A DNA stretch of 41,875 nucleotides from a virus. The notes under the pieces were generated by a model. It had not been told where the DNA came from. It did not search any database and saw only the letters and a program-made list of their open reading frames with translations. The stretch lies in the IMG/VR virus record IMGVR_UViG_3300028840_000401, positions 1 to 41,875 of that record; one strand, written 5' to 3'. This document shows, piece by piece, positions 29,294-41,875 of the stretch. The translations under genes and the position numbers were made by a program. Within the stretch, counting starts at the first letter, position 1. Each line of letters opens with the position of its first letter.

Positions 29294-30250
29294 TTACGTA
29301 GTCGGAACTACGAAAGTAACGATGTTGCTGTCGCGCAGAACCTTAACGCCGTAGAGCATGTCTACAGTGAACAGGTCAGCCAGCCACTCCTGCTTGTATT
29401 GCGTCTGAGAGCGAACTCCCATCTGCTCTACGAGGAGCATACCGTCACGCTGGAACAGGATACCAGCTACGTTGTCGGCGTTGTTAGAAGAGTCGTCAAC
29501 CAGCGGCAGCTGAGTTGTGACATAGACTTCTACACCGTACACGTTACCAACGATACCGTTGCGGATGGTGTTACCACCTGCACGCTCACCGACGAAGGCT
29601 TCTTCCGTGAAACGGGCGATACCTGTCAGGTCTTGCTTAACGATAGTTGGAACAACGTAGAAACGCTCAGCCATCGGCACGTCACCGTCGTCCAGAACCT
29701 TGATGTGAGCACGGATACCCGCATCAGAGATGTCTGTAGAAGCAGTTTCGTCCCAGACAGAACCGTCACCTTCGTAGATTGTGTCGAAGGTAGACGTTGT
29801 TTCCAGGGTGTTGGTAGAAGCAGTGTACACCAGAGACGCAGAGCCAGTGTTGAAGAACTCGACCAGGAGGTCGGTGTCAACCTGCTTAGCGATGGCATAA
29901 CCACCGTCGTCAGTGTAGAACTGCCGCAGAGAAGCCAGCGCTTGCACGTCAACGATGTCTTCGATGAAGCGGCTGTATTCCTTGTGCTTGTCGATAGATA
30001 CGACCAGTCCAGCATCTGCTCCGTGTTGGATCAGAGTAACTTGAGACTGAGCGCCTTTGTCGCTAGCAGAGCCACGAGTCGGCGTAGGGATACGGATAGT
30101 ATCACCCTTCTTGCCACGGTGGTTGAGCTTGCGTACCAGGTTTGCTGCTACCAGGTTTTGTTTGTAGGCAGCGATCACCTCATCAGACCACAGCTCCGGG
30201 ATGAAGTTGGGTACCTCAGTGGTGATAATGTGGTTAGTTCCTAGAGCCAC
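29294..30250 (-). CDS. Major capsid protein
   Basis: A 318-residue protein of podoviral coat type. It begins NHIITTEVPNFIPELWSDEV and contains KKGDTIRIPTPTRGSASDKG, a typical early strand of HK97-fold coat proteins of this group. It ends in a beta-rich QYKQEWLADLFTVDMLYGVKV region. GTG 30250 follows TAGGAGATAAGAC, the best ribosome site in the late operon. It lies just downstream of the scaffold gene and just upstream of a weak terminator, both expected of the most abundant virion protein. Confidence 0.9.
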   Translation of the reverse strand: MALGTNHIITTEVPNFIPELWSDEVIAAYKQNLVAANLVRKLNHRGKKGDTIRIPTPTRGSASDKGAQSQVTLIQHGADAGLVVSIDKHKEYSRFIEDIVDVQALASLRQFYTDDGGYAIAKQVDTDLLVEFFNTGSASLVYTASTNTLETTSTFDTIYEGDGSVWDETASTDISDAGIRAHIKVLDDGDVPMAERFYVVPTIVKQDLTGIARFTEEAFVGERAGGNTIRNGIVGNVYGVEVYVTTQLPLVDDSSNNADNVAGILFQRDGMLLVEQMGVRSQTQYKQEWLADLFTVDMLYGVKVLRDSNIVTFVVPTT

Positions 30251-31739: not shown

Positions 31740-33749
31740 TTACTCATTGTTGTTGGCCTCTCGTGCGACACGCTGGCGTTCAACCTCGACACGAGCTGCG
31801 TCGATCTGGTTGCGCTCAGCATCGAGCTGGAGGTCTTGTGCTTGCAGATAGATCTTCTGCTCAGCTACGCTGGCTTCTCGCTCAGCTTTCTCTGCTTCGG
31901 CCAGGAGCTTGCGCGTCTCAGCCTGCAGCTTGTTGTTCTTCAGAATCTGTTCGGTCAGAGCCTGTTCAGCGGTTTCAGCTTCGAACTCACGCAGCTTCTT
32001 GGCGTGTGCCTCTGCTTCTGGGTCAGGCTGCAGAGCCTGCTCCATCGCTGCCATGATCTCTGCCTTATTCACTACAGCAGACATCTCCATGATGCCTTGA
32101 GCTACAGCAACCTTTACCTGAGGGTAATCCTCTGGCAGCATGGCCATGAGCTGCGTCAGGTTCAGCTGCTCGACTTCGCGAGCAACGATACCCAGGGTAG
32201 CCTTGACCAGGAATTTGGTGTCGTTGAACGGGTACCGCGTCTGGTTGTACTGCAGATATCTCCACGCTGTCTTCTTGATCAGCGGCTGCATCAGTTGACG
32301 GTCTACGTTCTGGATCGCTCTCTTGCTTCGCTTGACGAAGGCTCCCATGAGCATGGATCCGGCATTCGCAGCATTCCCGCCTGAAGCGGTCTGTCCACGA
32401 AGTACAGAAGCAGTGTCAAACGCTCCAGTACCCATCTGAACCATCTCTTGTAGTTCGCGAGACTGGTTGAATGTGTTAGGTTCGAGGTTTCCGATCTGGA
32501 CAGGTCGCAGGATCTCATCCGGGTTCCCTTGAGTCAGCCATACCTTACCGGGTTTGACCTCTGGCTTGAAGCCACGGGGAATACGTCCGGCATCGATTCC
32601 AAGCATAGGGGCAGAGACAAAGCCCAGAGCGTCAGCACGACTGCGCATCTCTGCGTCCAGAGCTTTCTGTGGGTTGTAGCCTTTCTCACTTACACCTCTT
32701 CCCCAGAACCTACCTGGGACCTTATCCCAGCTGAAAGACACAACAGAGCGGTCCTTCATAGTAAACGGATTGATGATGGCACGCAGGAGGACACCATCAT
32801 TCGCGTAGGTCACGATAGCCTCTACTAGAGGACCAGATGAGCCTGTTGCACGCCCTTCAGCGTCCAGGAGGTCATCAACCGCTGTAATGTTGCGTTGAGC
32901 CCGATTCAGCAGCTCCAGGGGAACCTTGCCGTGGTACTCGATCACCTGGGTGACGTCAACATCAGTTTTACCAGCAGCAGTTGGCTCTTCCTGGCTGTAC
33001 ACATCCCGAGGGATAGGAGAGCCGCCCAGATAAGGGAGGGCACGGTCATCATAGATGCCACGCTCGATCTTCTCTAGGACTGCGTGCGTAGGCGTCTTGT
33101 GCTCGAAAGCAATACCGAGCATCTGCTGGATGTTAGAAGCGGAGCTGTCCGGGATGACCTGGTCGGGTCTGTAGCTTTCCCAACGAACCACGAACCGTGA
33201 GTCGTCTTCGGCTTCCAGGGCACCGTTGGCCGGGTTCCGCTTGAGCTTGCTGCCAGGGAGGATCTCAGTGTTGATCTTGATGGTACCCTGACCGAAGATA
33301 GCCGCGTTCGTCACAGCTTCAGAGATCACAGACTTACCGTCTACCAGCTCGATGTCTTCCAGGAGCTGGTCACGCATCAGCGTGGCGTCCATCTTCTCTT
33401 CGTCAGCGATATCGTCAGCGATGTCAAACCAGACTTCGCGAGACAGGACAGCTTCTTCGATTTCAGCTACCGAGGTCTCAATGGCTTGAGATAGGGCAGG
33501 GGCGATCAGTCGAGAACGCTCAGAGGACTTGTTCTGATCCTCGATACTCCACTGGCCTCTCCACAGTCTCCAATACTCTTGCCACAGCGCATCGTAGTAC
33601 ATGCTGCGGTGGTCCCGCCAGATACCAACACGATGGACTACCCATGCCACAAGTTCCCCACCAGGGAGCAGTGCCGCCTTGTTCGAATCATCGGCGGAAT
33701 CAGGAGAGTCAATTAGAATCTCCTGTCCTTGTGTACTGACTTCAGCCAT
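31740..33749 (-). CDS. Portal protein
   Basis: A 669-residue portal, the ring at the packaging vertex. The N-terminal half has DALWQEYWRLWRGQWS, SRLIAPALSQAIETSVAEIEEAVL and FSWDKVPGRFWGRGVSE, all typical of P22/podoviral portals. The last ~130 residues form a long charged helix (EAEAHAKKLREFEAETAEQA onward), likely the barrel that protrudes into the capsid and longer than in T7. Neighbours are large terminase upstream and scaffold/coat downstream. ATG 33749. Confidence 0.9.
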   Translation of the reverse strand: MAEVSTQGQEILIDSPDSADDSNKAALLPGGELVAWVVHRVGIWRDHRSMYYDALWQEYWRLWRGQWSIEDQNKSSERSRLIAPALSQAIETSVAEIEEAVLSREVWFDIADDIADEEKMDATLMRDQLLEDIELVDGKSVISEAVTNAAIFGQGTIKINTEILPGSKLKRNPANGALEAEDDSRFVVRWESYRPDQVIPDSSASNIQQMLGIAFEHKTPTHAVLEKIERGIYDDRALPYLGGSPIPRDVYSQEEPTAAGKTDVDVTQVIEYHGKVPLELLNRAQRNITAVDDLLDAEGRATGSSGPLVEAIVTYANDGVLLRAIINPFTMKDRSVVSFSWDKVPGRFWGRGVSEKGYNPQKALDAEMRSRADALGFVSAPMLGIDAGRIPRGFKPEVKPGKVWLTQGNPDEILRPVQIGNLEPNTFNQSRELQEMVQMGTGAFDTASVLRGQTASGGNAANAGSMLMGAFVKRSKRAIQNVDRQLMQPLIKKTAWRYLQYNQTRYPFNDTKFLVKATLGIVAREVEQLNLTQLMAMLPEDYPQVKVAVAQGIMEMSAVVNKAEIMAAMEQALQPDPEAEAHAKKLREFEAETAEQALTEQILKNNKLQAETRKLLAEAEKAEREASVAEQKIYLQAQDLQLDAERNQIDAARVEVERQRVAREANNNE

Positions 33750-33752
33750 CTA

Positions 33753-35096
33753 CTAGTATCCTGAAATAAGGTCCTGTGGTTCCCACTCTTCAATCTCATC
33801 GAGTGCGATGTAAGAGGTCTGGGCTAGCTGGTCCACATACGCGAGAGCGTCAGGTCCGTCGTCGTGAGAGAGTGGGTCACCGAGATCGGCGCACTGGTCC
33901 AGGAACCACTGGTTCCATTCACCCTTTACGAGCTTGATGTGTCCTCGCTGGGCTCGACCTTGGAGCGCCCAGACGATGCGATCCAACTTCTTTGTGTTGC
34001 CGTGCGAGAGTGGGTGCGGATTCACATACCGGTTCAGATCCCGCATGTAGTCCTCAAGATACGGCCATACCGCATTCATGAGGGCACCCTTTTCAATACC
34101 GAGCTGGCACCCTTGGTAGCGGCCAGCCGTTCTCATGATTCTTAGGGCTACTTCGCGAACGTCCCAGTGTCCGTGCTGCATGTCTAGCACGTACCAGGTA
34201 TCGTTCCCAGCCCAGGTGGTGCAGATGACCGTCTCGTCAGAACGAGGAGTGTGCTTGCCATCAGACTTGGCGTACCCAGCAAGGTCCACAGTCACAATAA
34301 TCTGACCGTATCCCTCTGTGTGGCCAGGTAGGCCATCCACAATATCGAACCACTCAGGCTTGAGGTGTTTGCCTGCTCCAGAGACGAAGCTAGCCTCCAG
34401 CTCCTGGCGTACCGCCTCCCGCGACAGGTTACCAGTCATCATCGACTGGATTTCCTTCGGATTCAGGAACGGGTTGTCAAGGGACTTGAAGTGGAAGCTT
34501 TCCCAGTCGTCCCAAGGGTTGGGATCGAAGTTCTCAGGGTTGGGCTTCTCCACCGCGTTGATGAAGAGCTTCCAGAAGTGGTTCTTGCCCTTAGGCGTAC
34601 CGATGAAGAGGGCTTCCCCCTCAACGTCACCCAGAGCAGGACGGATGATGAGTTCCCAGACTTCAGGTTTCATATCAGCGTACTCGTCGAGTACAACGTA
34701 ACTGAGACCGATACCCCGGAGGGAATCTGGGTTGTCAGCACCTTTGATGTAGATCTTTCGACCAGAGACAAGTTCGAGCCAACCATCGTTGACGTTCTCT
34801 TTCGCGATTAGCCCACCCTGGTTCTTGTAACCCAAGATCTCGCGAAGCTTGGGCCACATGACACGTTTGGCCTGATCGAAAGTTGGAGCGATGTAATATA
34901 CACCATGCTCCGTGGTCAGGTTGTAGCCTGCGTAGTTTGTGCTGGCTAGCGCATGGATCGCCAGCATATACGCCGCAAAGTGCGACTTTCCAAACCTACG
35001 ACCCGCTGCTACCACCTTGAATCGGGCAGGCGAATTGTAGATCTCCACCTGACCGGGATGCAGGCGGACTTGGAACTCTCCCGTTCTTGCCGCCAT
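33753..35096 (-). CDS. terL: Terminase large subunit
   Basis: A 447-residue packaging motor. The ATPase domain has Walker A AAGRRFGKS (30-38) and Walker B YVVLDEYAD (133-141). The C-terminal RNase H-like nuclease has VTVDLAGY (first Asp), IEKGALMN (Glu) and SHDDGPDALAYV (final Asp). ATG 35096. It lies upstream of portal and downstream of a DUF5681-type gene that may be its small partner. Confidence 0.95.
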   Translation of the reverse strand: MAARTGEFQVRLHPGQVEIYNSPARFKVVAAGRRFGKSHFAAYMLAIHALASTNYAGYNLTTEHGVYYIAPTFDQAKRVMWPKLREILGYKNQGGLIAKENVNDGWLELVSGRKIYIKGADNPDSLRGIGLSYVVLDEYADMKPEVWELIIRPALGDVEGEALFIGTPKGKNHFWKLFINAVEKPNPENFDPNPWDDWESFHFKSLDNPFLNPKEIQSMMTGNLSREAVRQELEASFVSGAGKHLKPEWFDIVDGLPGHTEGYGQIIVTVDLAGYAKSDGKHTPRSDETVICTTWAGNDTWYVLDMQHGHWDVREVALRIMRTAGRYQGCQLGIEKGALMNAVWPYLEDYMRDLNRYVNPHPLSHGNTKKLDRIVWALQGRAQRGHIKLVKGEWNQWFLDQCADLGDPLSHDDGPDALAYVDQLAQTSYIALDEIEEWEPQDLISGY

Positions 35097-36712: not shown

Positions 36713-36870
36713 GCGACCTCCTATTGTGCGGTCGGACGCTAAACTGGTTGGATATTCTCCGCAGATAATGCGTCGAATAGAAGGGGTAATCTCCGCATAT
36801 TCGCCGCATGTGTACACAATATACTCATGTACGTTAATAATGGACAGAGCCGGGAAGTGTACACCGGTGT
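36713..36870 (-). promoter_or_regulatory. Control region with two GTGTACAC palindromes
   Basis: Between tRNA-Thr and the first late gene lie two copies of the palindrome GTGTACAC (36810-36817 and 36857-36864), 47 bp apart. CACCGGTG overlaps the second. CTCCGCA also occurs twice (36758 and 36791). No convincing -35/-10 pair was found here. Possible operator sites. Confidence 0.4.
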
Positions 36871-36947
36871 TGGAGCCCCAGCACGGAATCGAACCGCGTT
36901 CTCCTGTTTACAAGACAGGGCATCATCCGGATAAATGTTTCAAGGGC
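36871..36947 (-). tRNA. tRNA-Thr (anticodon UGU), slightly irregular
   Basis: Minus strand. Anticodon arm CCTGT-CTTGTAA-ACAGG gives UGU. T arm CGCGG-TTCGATT-CCGTG. Acceptor GCCCTTG with CTGGGGC has one U-U mismatch. The 3' end TCCA is encoded. The D arm is loose (CATT with GATG, and an extra base next to the acceptor), so it may be degraded or unusual. Confidence 0.65.
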
Positions 36948-37021
36948 CTTTATTCCGCCCCCGCCAATTTGTTGGCGAGGTGCTTCCTTCGGAGCGATAG
37001 GGAGGCTCCGCAGTAGATAGT

Positions 37022-37097
37022 TGGTCTGGATTCCTGGATTCGAACCAGGTCCCCCCGCTTCCAAGGCGGGTAGCTTAGCCAATTTGCCCTAACCCAG
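37022..37097 (-). tRNA. tRNA-Pro (anticodon UGG)
   Basis: Minus strand, 76 nt. Acceptor CTGGGTT pairs with AATCCAG (one G-U). Anticodon arm CCCGC-CTTGGAA-GCGGG gives UGG. T arm CCTGG-TTCGAAT-CCAGG. ACCA is encoded at the 3' end (37022-37025). A well-formed cloverleaf. Confidence 0.93.
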
Positions 37098-37099
37098 AT

Positions 37100-37184
37100 T
37101 GGTACTCCCCCCAGGATTTGAACCTGGACGACCTTCCGGTCACCGACTTCTGAGGACGGCGTGTCTGCATTCCACCAGAGGAGC
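37100..37184 (-). tRNA. tRNA-Leu (anticodon CAG)
   Basis: Minus strand, 85 nt, with a long variable arm (GACC-GGAA-GGTC) as expected for leucine. Acceptor GCTCCTC with GGGGAGT; anticodon loop CTCAGAA gives CAG, with one U-U mismatch in its stem. T arm CCAGG-TTCAAAT-CCTGG; ACCA encoded. The D loop is two bases shorter than usual. Confidence 0.85.
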
Positions 37185-37400
37185 GAAGAACTAAGGGGAC
37201 TGGAACCAAACTGAGCGCTTGGAAGTCCCCTGATGTCTGTTGGAGAGACAGACGATCCTAAGGTAACTCTCTATATCTAGTTCAGACCGGAGTACTTAGG
37301 TCTGAACAATCGGCTGCTGTGCAGCCCCTAGACGTCTAGATCGGCCCCCCAAGGGGCCTCTGCATGTCTGTCGCTAAAGTAATCGCTCCAGACTAGATAA
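37185..37400 (-). promoter_or_regulatory. Hairpin-rich leader upstream of the tRNA genes
   Basis: No gene is seen here. At least five perfect hairpins lie in a row: AGGGGACT/AGTCCCCT (37194-37231, inner CCAA/TTGG), GTCTGT/ACAGAC (37235-37253), GTTCAGACC/GGTCTGAAC (37280-37307), GGCTG/CAGCC (37312-37326) and GGCCCC/GGGGCC (37343-37358). A 12-bp palindrome CTAGACGTCTAG (37328-37339) adds to them. Transcripts from promoter B would carry this region as a structured leader ahead of tRNA-Leu. It may aid tRNA processing or be a control RNA. Confidence 0.5.
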
Positions 37401-37408
37401 ACATTACT

Positions 37409-37451
37409 CCTATACAACAATGATAGGAAATATCTCCAATTTTTCAAAGAA
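37409..37451 (-). promoter_or_regulatory. Putative phage sigma promoter, copy B (late/tRNA)
   Basis: Minus strand: TTCTTTGAA (37451-37443), 15 bases, then CCTATCATTGTTGTATAGG (37427-37409). It matches copy A over more than 40 bases including part of the spacer (TTGGAGATAT). It faces the tRNAs and the late operon. Confidence 0.7.
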
Positions 37452-37572
37452 ATCAGCAAATTAAATTGTTACAGAGTCTCTGAAATCTCCTATTTTCCCT
37501 TTGGGAACAAGGATTTACCCTGTAACAAAAGAATTTTAGACTCTGGTCTAATATTTCAAACAAAACAGGGTT
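37452..37572. repeat. AT-rich region with nested inverted repeats
   Basis: TTGTTACAG (37466-37474) is repeated inverted as CTGTAACAA (37520-37528). CAGAGTCT (37472-37479) is repeated inverted as AGACTCTG (37538-37545). CAGAGTCTCTG (37472-37482) is itself a palindrome. No gene is seen. Such a site between divergent transcripts could be an operator or a replication origin. Confidence 0.5.
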
Positions 37573-37608
37573 GATTATGTATAGTGAAAACTAGGAAAAC
37601 TTCAAAGA
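37573..37608 (-). promoter_or_regulatory. Possible phage sigma promoter, copy D
   Basis: Minus strand: TCTTTGAA (37608-37601), 15 bases, then ACTATACATAATC (37585-37573). The first box and spacing match copies A-C exactly; the second box is a looser match with one inserted base. It would be tandem to copy B. Confidence 0.4.
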
Positions 37609-37750
37609 CCGGTTGAAAAATCAGGTCAGACCCCTAAATCGGCTAGATCCAGCATTTTCTCTGTGTCAAGACTTGACTTTCCCCCCTAACTATGGCCTGT
37701 TTTTCTCTATTTCGTGAGATTGTGTGGCTACCGAACTAAATCCCGCCCCA

Positions 37751-37857
37751 TATAACCGGATGCCCTATGCTTATAACTAAATGATCTAAGAAAAAACTTG
37801 ACACGAGGGACAGAGTGTGGCACGAACATCTATAACTAAAAGTTATAAGCTTATAAC
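37751..37857. repeat. TATAAC repeats and 16-bp palindrome upstream of the early promoter
   Basis: TATAAC occurs at 37751, 37772 and 37831. The perfect palindrome GTTATAAGCTTATAAC follows at 37842-37857, ending ten bases before the -35 box of the early promoter. TATAACT-AAA-AGTTATA (37831-37847) is a second inverted pair. Spacing and position suggest an operator for a repressor or activator of the early transcript. No gene is seen from 37609 to 37900. Confidence 0.55.
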
Positions 37858-37867
37858 AAATCGGTAT

Positions 37868-37895
37868 TAGACATCCTCGCTCATTGCTGTATAAT
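37868..37895 (+). promoter_or_regulatory. Strong sigma-70 early promoter
   Basis: TAGACA (37868-37873), 16 bases, TATAAT (37890-37895). The -10 box is consensus and the -35 box has one mismatch. The start of transcription would be near 37902, which sets the 5' end of the large noncoding RNA and drives the early genes by host RNA polymerase. Confidence 0.8.
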
Positions 37896-37901
37896 GGTAT
37901 G

Positions 37902-38463
37902 TATGAGTTGGGATGACTCACCTTCTGGAGACAGTGCCAGGGGGGTCCACGAAGATGTGTCGGACGGGCCACGAAACGGTCAGGGAGAATCAGGCTCCCG
38001 GAAGAATGGATCTGCAAAGCGCGATCCACAGTTTGATAGGTGACTATCTGCTGAAACCTGACGTGCAGCTAGAGGTGTGGTGCTCTAGCCATCCTCCCAA
38101 GAGGGGATGTGGATGAAATCCGGTGACGGGTGATTCTGGGATGTTCGCTTGCGTGCATTGTGGTTTCCGAAGGTAACGGATCCATCTCCACATCTCTGGC
38201 GTAGGTTGAACCATGAGCAGGGCAGGCACGGGACGTGCTGGGAGCTAGTGAGTGGGCAGTCCAGTTATTGGGCTTGGGAGTGATGCACCGAGGTGATTAA
38301 GCCTACTGGGTGATATAAGTATATCTCTCCTAAAGCCTACTGATGAGCCGAGAGGCTATGCTGGGTGACCGGCATAGACAGGGTGGTTCCTGTCGAAACG
38401 AACACAGGCATGTGGAGAGTGAGCACTGTTCGGAGTCTATGACTCTGGATAGTGGACACTCTC
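37902..38463 (+). ncRNA. Large structured noncoding RNA, ~560 nt (GOLLD/ROOL-like candidate)
   Basis: No credible gene lies here, yet the sequence folds by eye into consecutive hairpins from end to end. Examples: TGAGT/ACTCA (37904-37920), GGGAG/CTCCC (37983-37999), TGGATC/GATCCA (38007-38028), GATAG-GTGA-CTATC (38035-38048), GCTAGAG/CTCTAGC (38068-38089), CATCCTC/GAGGATG-like (38090-38109), ATCCG-GTGA-CGGGT (38118-38131), TCCG/CGGA (38166-38180), GCACG/CGTGC (38226-38238), GATAT/ATATC (38312-38325), CTATGCTGG-GTGA-CCGGCATAG (38356-38377), GACAGG/CCTGTC (38377-38394) and a long closing hairpin GAGAGTG...CACTCTC (38415-38463). Three stems carry the same GTGA (GNRA) tetraloop and others carry GAGA, typical of RNAs with tertiary docking. 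A sigma-70 promoter sits just upstream, and tRNA genes lie 0.7 kb away. Size and phage/tRNA context match GOLLD and ROOL RNAs, but I cannot confirm membership in either. Confidence 0.8.
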
Positions 38464-38494
38464 AATTGCGTTTAGGTAACCAAAGGAGAATGCA
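38464..38494 (+). promoter_or_regulatory. Leader element, copy 1 (after the ncRNA)
   Basis: GTTTAGGTAACCA (38470-38482) and AAGGAGAATGCA lead to ATG 38495. Its hairpin is the closing stem of the large RNA (38415-38463), so the RNA's 3' end and the first mRNA leader are joined. Confidence 0.7.
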
Positions 38495-38671
38495 ATGAGC
38501 ATTATCAAGATATCTGACGACGTATGGTATGACTTCGAATCTGAGCACGCCTACTATGAAGACGACGCTGAACTGGTGTCTGATTCTGACTATCCGCCTG
38601 TCTACGCCACAGCTGAGGAGCTGGAGGTGCTGCAGGATCTGGGTCTGGTTGTAATCGAGCAGGAGGTCTGA
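38495..38671 (+). CDS. Small acidic early protein, 58 aa
   Basis: ATG 38495 follows AAAGGAGAATGCA. The 58-residue product is very acidic (SDDVWYDFESEHAYYEDDAE; no fewer than 18 Asp/Glu) and may mimic DNA or bind a host protein. The stop lies one base before the next ATG (38673). It is the first gene after the large RNA. No family is recognised. Confidence 0.7.
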   Translation: MSIIKISDDVWYDFESEHAYYEDDAELVSDSDYPPVYATAEELEVLQDLGLVVIEQEV

Positions 38672-38895: not shown

Positions 38896-39102
38896 ATGAT
38901 GCTACTGAACTACGATTCAAAGAAGCAACTCAAAGAGTCCATCGGCCAGCCGCTCCGCTACACTGAAACCAGCATATTTGGTCCGGAGTACACGGATAAC
39001 GGCACATTCGTTGGGGCTCGACGTCCTCACCTACAAGGTGGGGGTCGGGAGTTCTTCGCAGAAGTCACCATGAAGGATGGCAAGATCGCCGCAGTCAAGT
39101 GA
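38896..39102 (+). CDS. Small early protein, 68 aa
   Basis: ATG 38896 (a second ATG follows at 38899) after a clear ribosome site. The 68-residue product has KKQLKESIGQPLRYTETSIF and ends EVTMKDGKIAAVK. It looks like a compact beta-rich fold; similar short proteins are found in early regions of other phages. No function known. Confidence 0.75.
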   Translation: MMLLNYDSKKQLKESIGQPLRYTETSIFGPEYTDNGTFVGARRPHLQGGGREFFAEVTMKDGKIAAVK

Positions 39103-41554: not shown

Positions 41555-41875
41555 ATGAATCTGATTTCAAGCGAATGTTTCCAGTATCTCTACAGATACT
41601 GCAACACACCGGATTACGTCCGTATCCCTTCTACGCTCCGTGATCGATGGGTGAAAGCTCTTAGGTCTGGCGAGTACGAGCAGGATCGTGACTTTCTCAG
41701 AATCCTTAACGATGATGATACCTACGGGTATTGCTGTCTCGGAGTTCTCTGCGAACTGACTGAAGAAGTTGCGGACGTGGGTAACGGTTATTTTCAGCTC
41801 GCTGGGAGCGACGACCGCTGTAACCAGATGCCATCCCAGGACATCTATGATTTCTGGGATCTGCATGATGAGGTG
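41555..41875 (+). CDS. N-terminal part of YCCLGVLC-type phage protein (continues at 1)
   Basis: ATG 41555 follows AAAGGAGAATACTT. The N-terminal 107 residues include RWVKALRSGEYEQD, then YGYCCLGVLCELTEEVADVG. The pattern RW-x-x-AL-x-SG-x-Y, followed by CCLGVLC, occurs in many phage genomes. The gene runs off the window and is completed at 1-222. Confidence 0.8.
   Translation, partial: MNLISSECFQYLYRYCNTPDYVRIPSTLRDRWVKALRSGEYEQDRDFLRILNDDDTYGYCCLGVLCELTEEVADVGNGYFQLAGSDDRCNQMPSQDIYDFWDLHDEV
41732..41875. repeat. Terminal overlap identical to bases 1-144
   Basis: All 144 bases repeat the beginning of the window and sit inside one gene. This shows a circular map, from a circularly permuted or terminally redundant genome. 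It does not mark a physical end. Confidence 0.95.

Follow-up and report, generated by a model that had tools for sequence, protein, structure and literature searches.

A predicted structured noncoding RNA upstream of the early genes of a 41.7-kb phage genome

RESULTS

A long noncoding stretch lies between the tRNA genes and the early genes

The stretch of DNA that we analyzed, referred to here as the window, is 41,875 nt long, and its ends are identical, with bases 1 to 144 recurring exactly as bases 41732 to 41875. This 144-bp direct repeat indicates that the phage genome is probably complete at 41,731 bp (about 41.7 kb) and was either circularly assembled or terminally redundant. The late genes are on the minus strand and include those for the terminase (33753 to 35096), the portal (31740 to 33749), and the major head protein (29294 to 30250). 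The early and replication genes are on the plus strand, beginning at 38495 and running across the genome end, past which come, in order, genes for a sigma-70-like factor (1255 to 1911), DnaB, a family A polymerase, and a ribonucleotide reductase. The polymerase is ~39% identical to those of the VpV262-like phages (Zobellviridae), and the cultured relatives of the terminase and capsid are all distant. The phage-encoded sigma factor belongs to the sigma-70 family (Sigma70_r4), which suggests that later phage genes use another type of promoter.

The late and early genes diverge from a region that contains a 1.7-kb noncoding stretch. On one side of the RNA region within this stretch are the genes for tRNA-Leu, tRNA-Pro, and tRNA-Thr (36871 to 37184, minus strand), 0.7 kb from the RNA and on the opposite strand; on the other side is the first early gene. 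A G+C-rich hairpin cluster adjoins the tRNA genes (37281 to 37440), where both strands are unusually stable (z about −4), and the AT-rich divergent intergenic region at 37770 to 37860 carries repeated TTATAAC/CTATAACTAAA motifs that are possible regulator or origin sites.

The codon-usage model called no gene from 36818 to 38494. The initial annotation had described ~560 bases at 37902 to 38463 as lacking a credible gene, and our analysis agreed. Neither of the ORFs present, of 67 aa (37913 to 38116, plus strand) and 51 aa (38343 to 38498, plus strand), was scored as a gene or was preceded by a Shine-Dalgarno module, and no ORF inside the region had a PHROG match.

The promoter reported directly upstream of this region also proved to be real. 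The sigma-70-like sequence TAGACA-N16-TATAAT (37868 to 37895, plus strand) matches the consensus at 11 of 12 positions and, when both strands were scanned, was the only site in the genome to do so. Transcription is predicted to start at about 37901 to 37903, which is 1 to 3 nt upstream of the first hairpin (TGAGTT/GACTCA; 37904 to 37920, plus strand; mean pair probability, 0.89). A second plus-strand hairpin, CCTTCTGG/CCAGGGGG, follows at 37921 to 37944 (pair probability, 1.0).

The plus strand is more structured than expected by chance

We compared the predicted transcript body (37902 to 38463, plus strand) with dinucleotide shuffles. The minimum free energy (MFE) of the plus strand was −231.9 kcal/mol, versus −199 ± 6.6 kcal/mol in the shuffles (z about −4.7), and that of the minus strand was −174.0 kcal/mol (z −2.8). 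At least thirteen hairpins had previously been folded by eye; the plus-strand MFE fold contained 18 hairpin loops, against 10.2 ± 2.0 in shuffles, and 14 of the 18 had stems of at least 4 bp, against 5.1 ± 1.9. Neither number was reached by any of 500 shuffles. When windows were tiled genome-wide, a count of 18 was reached elsewhere only at the tRNA array (about 36801).

The three identical GTGA tetraloops and the GAGA loop that had been noted were all found, with a single GAGA loop at 38346. All three GTGA loops (38035, 38118, and 38356) cap plus-strand stems of at least 5 bp. None of 10,000 shuffles contained at least three GTGA loops of this kind, placing them beyond chance, and at least three GNRA loops were seen in 0.14%. 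The minus strand had no GTGA or GNRA loops on such stems. G-U pairs made up 12 of the 103 well-supported pairs and were used in several stems. The strand asymmetry of the fold and of the GTGA loops argues for selection on a plus-strand RNA and against DNA palindromes. Judged by these fold statistics and the lack of a coding signal, a structured, noncoding, plus-strand RNA is well supported, and we consider it very probable that a real one is encoded at 37902 to 38463.

The structure is not evenly distributed. The excess stability is mainly in the 3′ 200 nt (38262 to 38463; local z −6.4), and in the middle (38056 to 38265; z 0.06) stability does not exceed that of the shuffles. Local z values were −0.9 for 37902 to 38261, where there were 12 hairpins versus 6.9 in shuffles, and −2.0 for 37902 to 38135.

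Most of the RNA is predicted to form a closed multibranch domain (37946 to 38416, plus strand). Pairs 37947-37950/38412-38415 close it, and its inner helices are 37994-37999/38240-38245 and 38068-38080/38188-38200. Its pair probabilities exceeded 0.8 in the isolated RNA, and the domain was partly rearranged when downstream sequence was added. Within it, all on the plus strand, are the GTGA hairpins GATAG-GTGA-CTATC (38035 to 38048), ATCCG-GTGA-CGGGT (38118 to 38131), and CTATGCTGG-GTGA-CCGGCATAG (38356 to 38377), as well as the GAGA hairpin (38346 to 38357). The repeat reported at 38299 and 38333 does consist of two exact copies of AAGCCTACTG (38299 to 38308 and 38333 to 38342, plus strand), although it is weak evidence, since chance alone would give about 0.15 such 10-nt repeat pairs in 562 nt (562 × 562 / 2 / 4^10). 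Both copies are alternative pairing partners of 38269 to 38274, and a switch is possible in the predicted fold.

No terminator-like site separates the predicted RNA from the early genes

At the 3′ boundary is a 21-bp hairpin with an AG/GA internal loop (38415 to 38463, plus strand; z −6.6); with both strands considered, no other 56-nt hairpin in the genome is as stable. The early messages of T7 are separated by RNase III sites, which are long hairpins that contain an internal loop and lie at gene boundaries. Such sites call for ~20 bp or more of nearly continuous double helix, and the length of 21 bp makes the terminal hairpin a candidate RNase III site. It ends 31 nt upstream of the first early gene and about 12 nt upstream of the Shine-Dalgarno module of that gene, TTAGGTAACCAAAGGAG (38472 to 38488, plus strand), which is common to several genes. 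The first early gene itself (38495 to 38671, plus strand) encodes 58 aa with no assigned function and no PHROG match (codon-usage score, 23).

An extended form of the module, (TT)AGGTAACCAAAGGAG, precedes genes of the phage at 661, 38475, 38873, 39479, and 39492 (plus strand). Near-identical copies precede terminase-region genes in other loci (L029:9206, L026:441, and L023:412), where terminase identity is only 45%.

Downstream of the RNA, the plus strand has no terminator-like site ahead of the first genes, so transcription would read on into the early genes. The RNA thus has the layout of an operon leader: a promoter upstream, the same strand as the genes, and no terminator before the first of them. 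C-poor untranslated RNA would offer Rho no landing site. C outnumbered G in 1 of 484 78-nt windows of the RNA, versus 960 of 3,159 (30%) in the early genes, and such a G-rich, C-poor composition would be as expected of a long untranslated leader needing to escape Rho.

The RNA matches no known family and has no detected homologue

The initial annotation had proposed that the RNA is a member or relative of GOLLD or ROOL. At the gathering level, no Rfam family matched the region, and a permissive Rfam scan (E ≤ 5) gave no GOLLD or ROOL match on it. Searched individually at E ≤ 10, neither RF02032 (GOLLD) nor RF03087 (ROOL) found a match. Since the individual ROOL search was also blank in control genomes, the permissive scan is the better test. 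With both covariance models, including the conserved 3′ domain of GOLLD, finding nothing, we rejected membership in either family. It is credible that the window RNA is a new phage RNA and not a member of GOLLD or ROOL.

A blastn search with the RNA retrieved no similar sequence from 50,697 phage records or 72,556 plasmids, and exact 26-mer matching found no homologue in IMG/VR. None of ~190 related loci, located through the terminase, polymerase, helicase, and a 68-aa early protein, contained anything similar. Scans with the portal and a 199-aa early protein yielded no relatives, a scan of genome contigs yielded one distant terminase and nothing else, and a search for GNRA-rich folds in 5600 windows of the related loci yielded no clear counterpart. 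The apparent matches of L023, L026, L029, and L079 to the 3′ edge of the RNA were merely the Shine-Dalgarno module, and an 18-nt exact match in record L188 was inside a 581-aa ORF and was taken as chance.

The contigs of the two nearest relatives, L085 (75% terminase identity) and L005 (67%), break off shortly before the RNA would be reached. L083 (58%) extends across this position and carries, in place of a long RNA, a promoter with only a short leader, which means that such an RNA is dispensable or not universal in the lineage.

Other phages have hairpin-rich regions at the same position

The 68-aa protein (38896 to 39102; phrog_37117) has no assigned function. It has 59 relatives in IMG/VR and is 40 to 69% identical to proteins of Rhodobacter, Erythrobacter, Roseobacter, Pseudomonas, and Pelagibacter phages and of many metagenomic phages.

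Several of the phages with a relative of this protein (L138, L139, L146, L148, L158, L168, and L183) have back-to-back consensus promoters between the small terminase gene and the early genes, and the rightward promoter is followed by 300 to 600 nt of very hairpin-rich noncoding DNA (z down to −11). These regions contain arrays of near-perfect short hairpins (L139:2604-3330, L146:3115-3850, and L158:2817-3490; also L148, L168, and L183). They resemble the window RNA in position, in the promoter-then-noncoding layout, and in high hairpin density. However, they share neither sequence nor fold with it, are near-palindromic, and show no GNRA enrichment. Their two strands fold about equally well, and a second promoter-like site can lie downstream of them, ahead of the early genes. 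Given this lack of similarity, the folding of both strands, and the second promoter-like site, the L139-type regions may be a different thing from the window RNA. RNAalifold applied to L139, L146, L148, and L158 gave 30 pairs changed on both sides with an unfavorable covariation term (+0.88), the alignment of L158 being poor. The survey suggests that the interval between the small terminase gene and the early genes often holds structured noncoding sequence, without implying that the RNAs are homologous. If related phages keep swapping hairpin-rich leaders at one place, selection there may be on structure and not on sequence.

Two of these loci (L183:2123-2229 and L168:1858-1960) also have an inverted repeat, ~105 nt long and nearly perfect, with the start codon of the next gene in its 3′ arm; this repeat could hide the ribosome-binding site of that gene.

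DISCUSSION

The reading that we favor, tentatively and with confidence a little short of even, is that the RNA is a structured, C-poor, untranslated 5′ leader of the early operon, probably cut at its terminal hairpin. We counted for it the unique 11/12 promoter, the plus-strand structure, the lack of a terminator, the boundary hairpin, the C-poverty, and the L139-type parallels, and against it the lack of a homologue, the short leader of L083, and the dissimilarity of the L139-type regions. Host RNA polymerase would transcribe the leader from the best sigma-70-like promoter of the genome and would pass from it into the early genes. The C-poor, hairpin-dense body would let the polymerase cross ~590 untranslated bases by giving Rho nowhere to land. 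RNase III would then cut the terminal hairpin, as between the T7 early messages, leaving the early mRNA with a clean 5′ end and freeing a discrete RNA of ~560 nt; the leader would also shield the early mRNA. We infer these events of transcription, Rho escape, cleavage, and shielding, drawing the T7 parallel and the Rho argument from general knowledge.

The ROOL assembly is an RNA-only nanocage, and the GOLLD assembly is a 14-mer nanocage. A possible but less probable reading is that the window RNA is an ornate RNA acting in trans as GOLLD and ROOL do: discrete, abundant, early, compactly folded, accumulating apart from the mRNA, and perhaps forming oligomers through loop-loop and A-minor contacts. 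Its length (~560 nt, against 574 positions in the Rfam ROOL model), the tRNA cluster 0.7 kb away, the GNRA loops beyond chance, and the predicted multibranch body capped by hairpins at both ends are all consistent with this, and GOLLD and ROOL, which assemble into nanocages, are likewise phage RNAs found close to tRNAs (PMC12286853). The absence of Rfam matches, homologues, and a terminator argues against it, as does a middle third only as stable as shuffled sequence. We think it unlikely, though slightly less so than the reading discussed next, that the RNA founds a class of its own among large ornate phage RNAs, with no relation to GOLLD, ROOL, or OLE; it would then be the first transcript of infection, released from the early mRNA by RNase III, self-folding, and perhaps self-assembling.

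The uneven fold raises the question of whether the functional structure is confined to the 3′ 200 nt, for example, as an mRNA 5′ stabilizer or a processing site, with the upstream 360 nt serving as a spacer or representing what is left of a lost gene. The local z values (−6.4 for 38262 to 38463 against −0.9 for 37902 to 38261 and 0.06 for 38056 to 38265) favor such a division, but the upstream part has more hairpins than its shuffles (12 versus 6.9), holds two of the three GTGA hairpins, and bears no coding trace, and we judge the division improbable. Far less probable still is an element acting as DNA, for example, a replication origin or palindromes that bind protein. The region is a divergent late/early one and adjoins the AT-rich stretch with TTATAAC repeats (37770 to 37860), but palindromes would fold about equally on both strands, whereas here the plus strand reaches −231.9 kcal/mol and the minus strand −174.0 kcal/mol, G-U pairs are present in several stems, and only the plus strand has GNRA loops. 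We give least credence of all to the idea that the region encodes one or more small proteins and that its structure is incidental; the 67-aa and 51-aa ORFs would be the candidates, but neither was scored as a gene, matched a PHROG, or followed a Shine-Dalgarno module.

To our knowledge, large structured RNAs are a rarity in phages, and no function is known for them. The leader that we favor, an RNA joined to an early operon and ending in a likely processing hairpin, would offer a testable idea of how such RNAs arise. Among the known systems, ROOL (RF03087) is of the same length class (574 model positions against ~560 nt) and is similar in its phage setting and many hairpins; its location in phages or prophages near tRNA genes also has a parallel here, in the cluster at 36871 to 37184. 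The window RNA differs in having no match to the model, in lying on the strand opposite the tRNAs, and in continuing without a terminator into early genes. GOLLD (RF02032) is likewise a large phage RNA with tRNA genes nearby, but the window RNA does not match its model and is shorter, many GOLLD members being reported at >800 nt (PMC12286853). Phage ICP1 has a noncoding RNA of ~800 nt, known from RNA-seq, that lies between gp139 and gp140 and adjoins the lysis cluster; its authors compared it with GOLLD and ROOL on length only (PMC7567579). Both it and the window RNA would be long phage transcripts from ORF-less space, but the latter is a prediction only and is upstream of early genes rather than beside a lysis cluster. 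Finally, like the RNase III sites of the T7 early genes, the terminal hairpin is long, contains an internal loop, and marks an early gene boundary; unlike them, it comes after a long structured leader.
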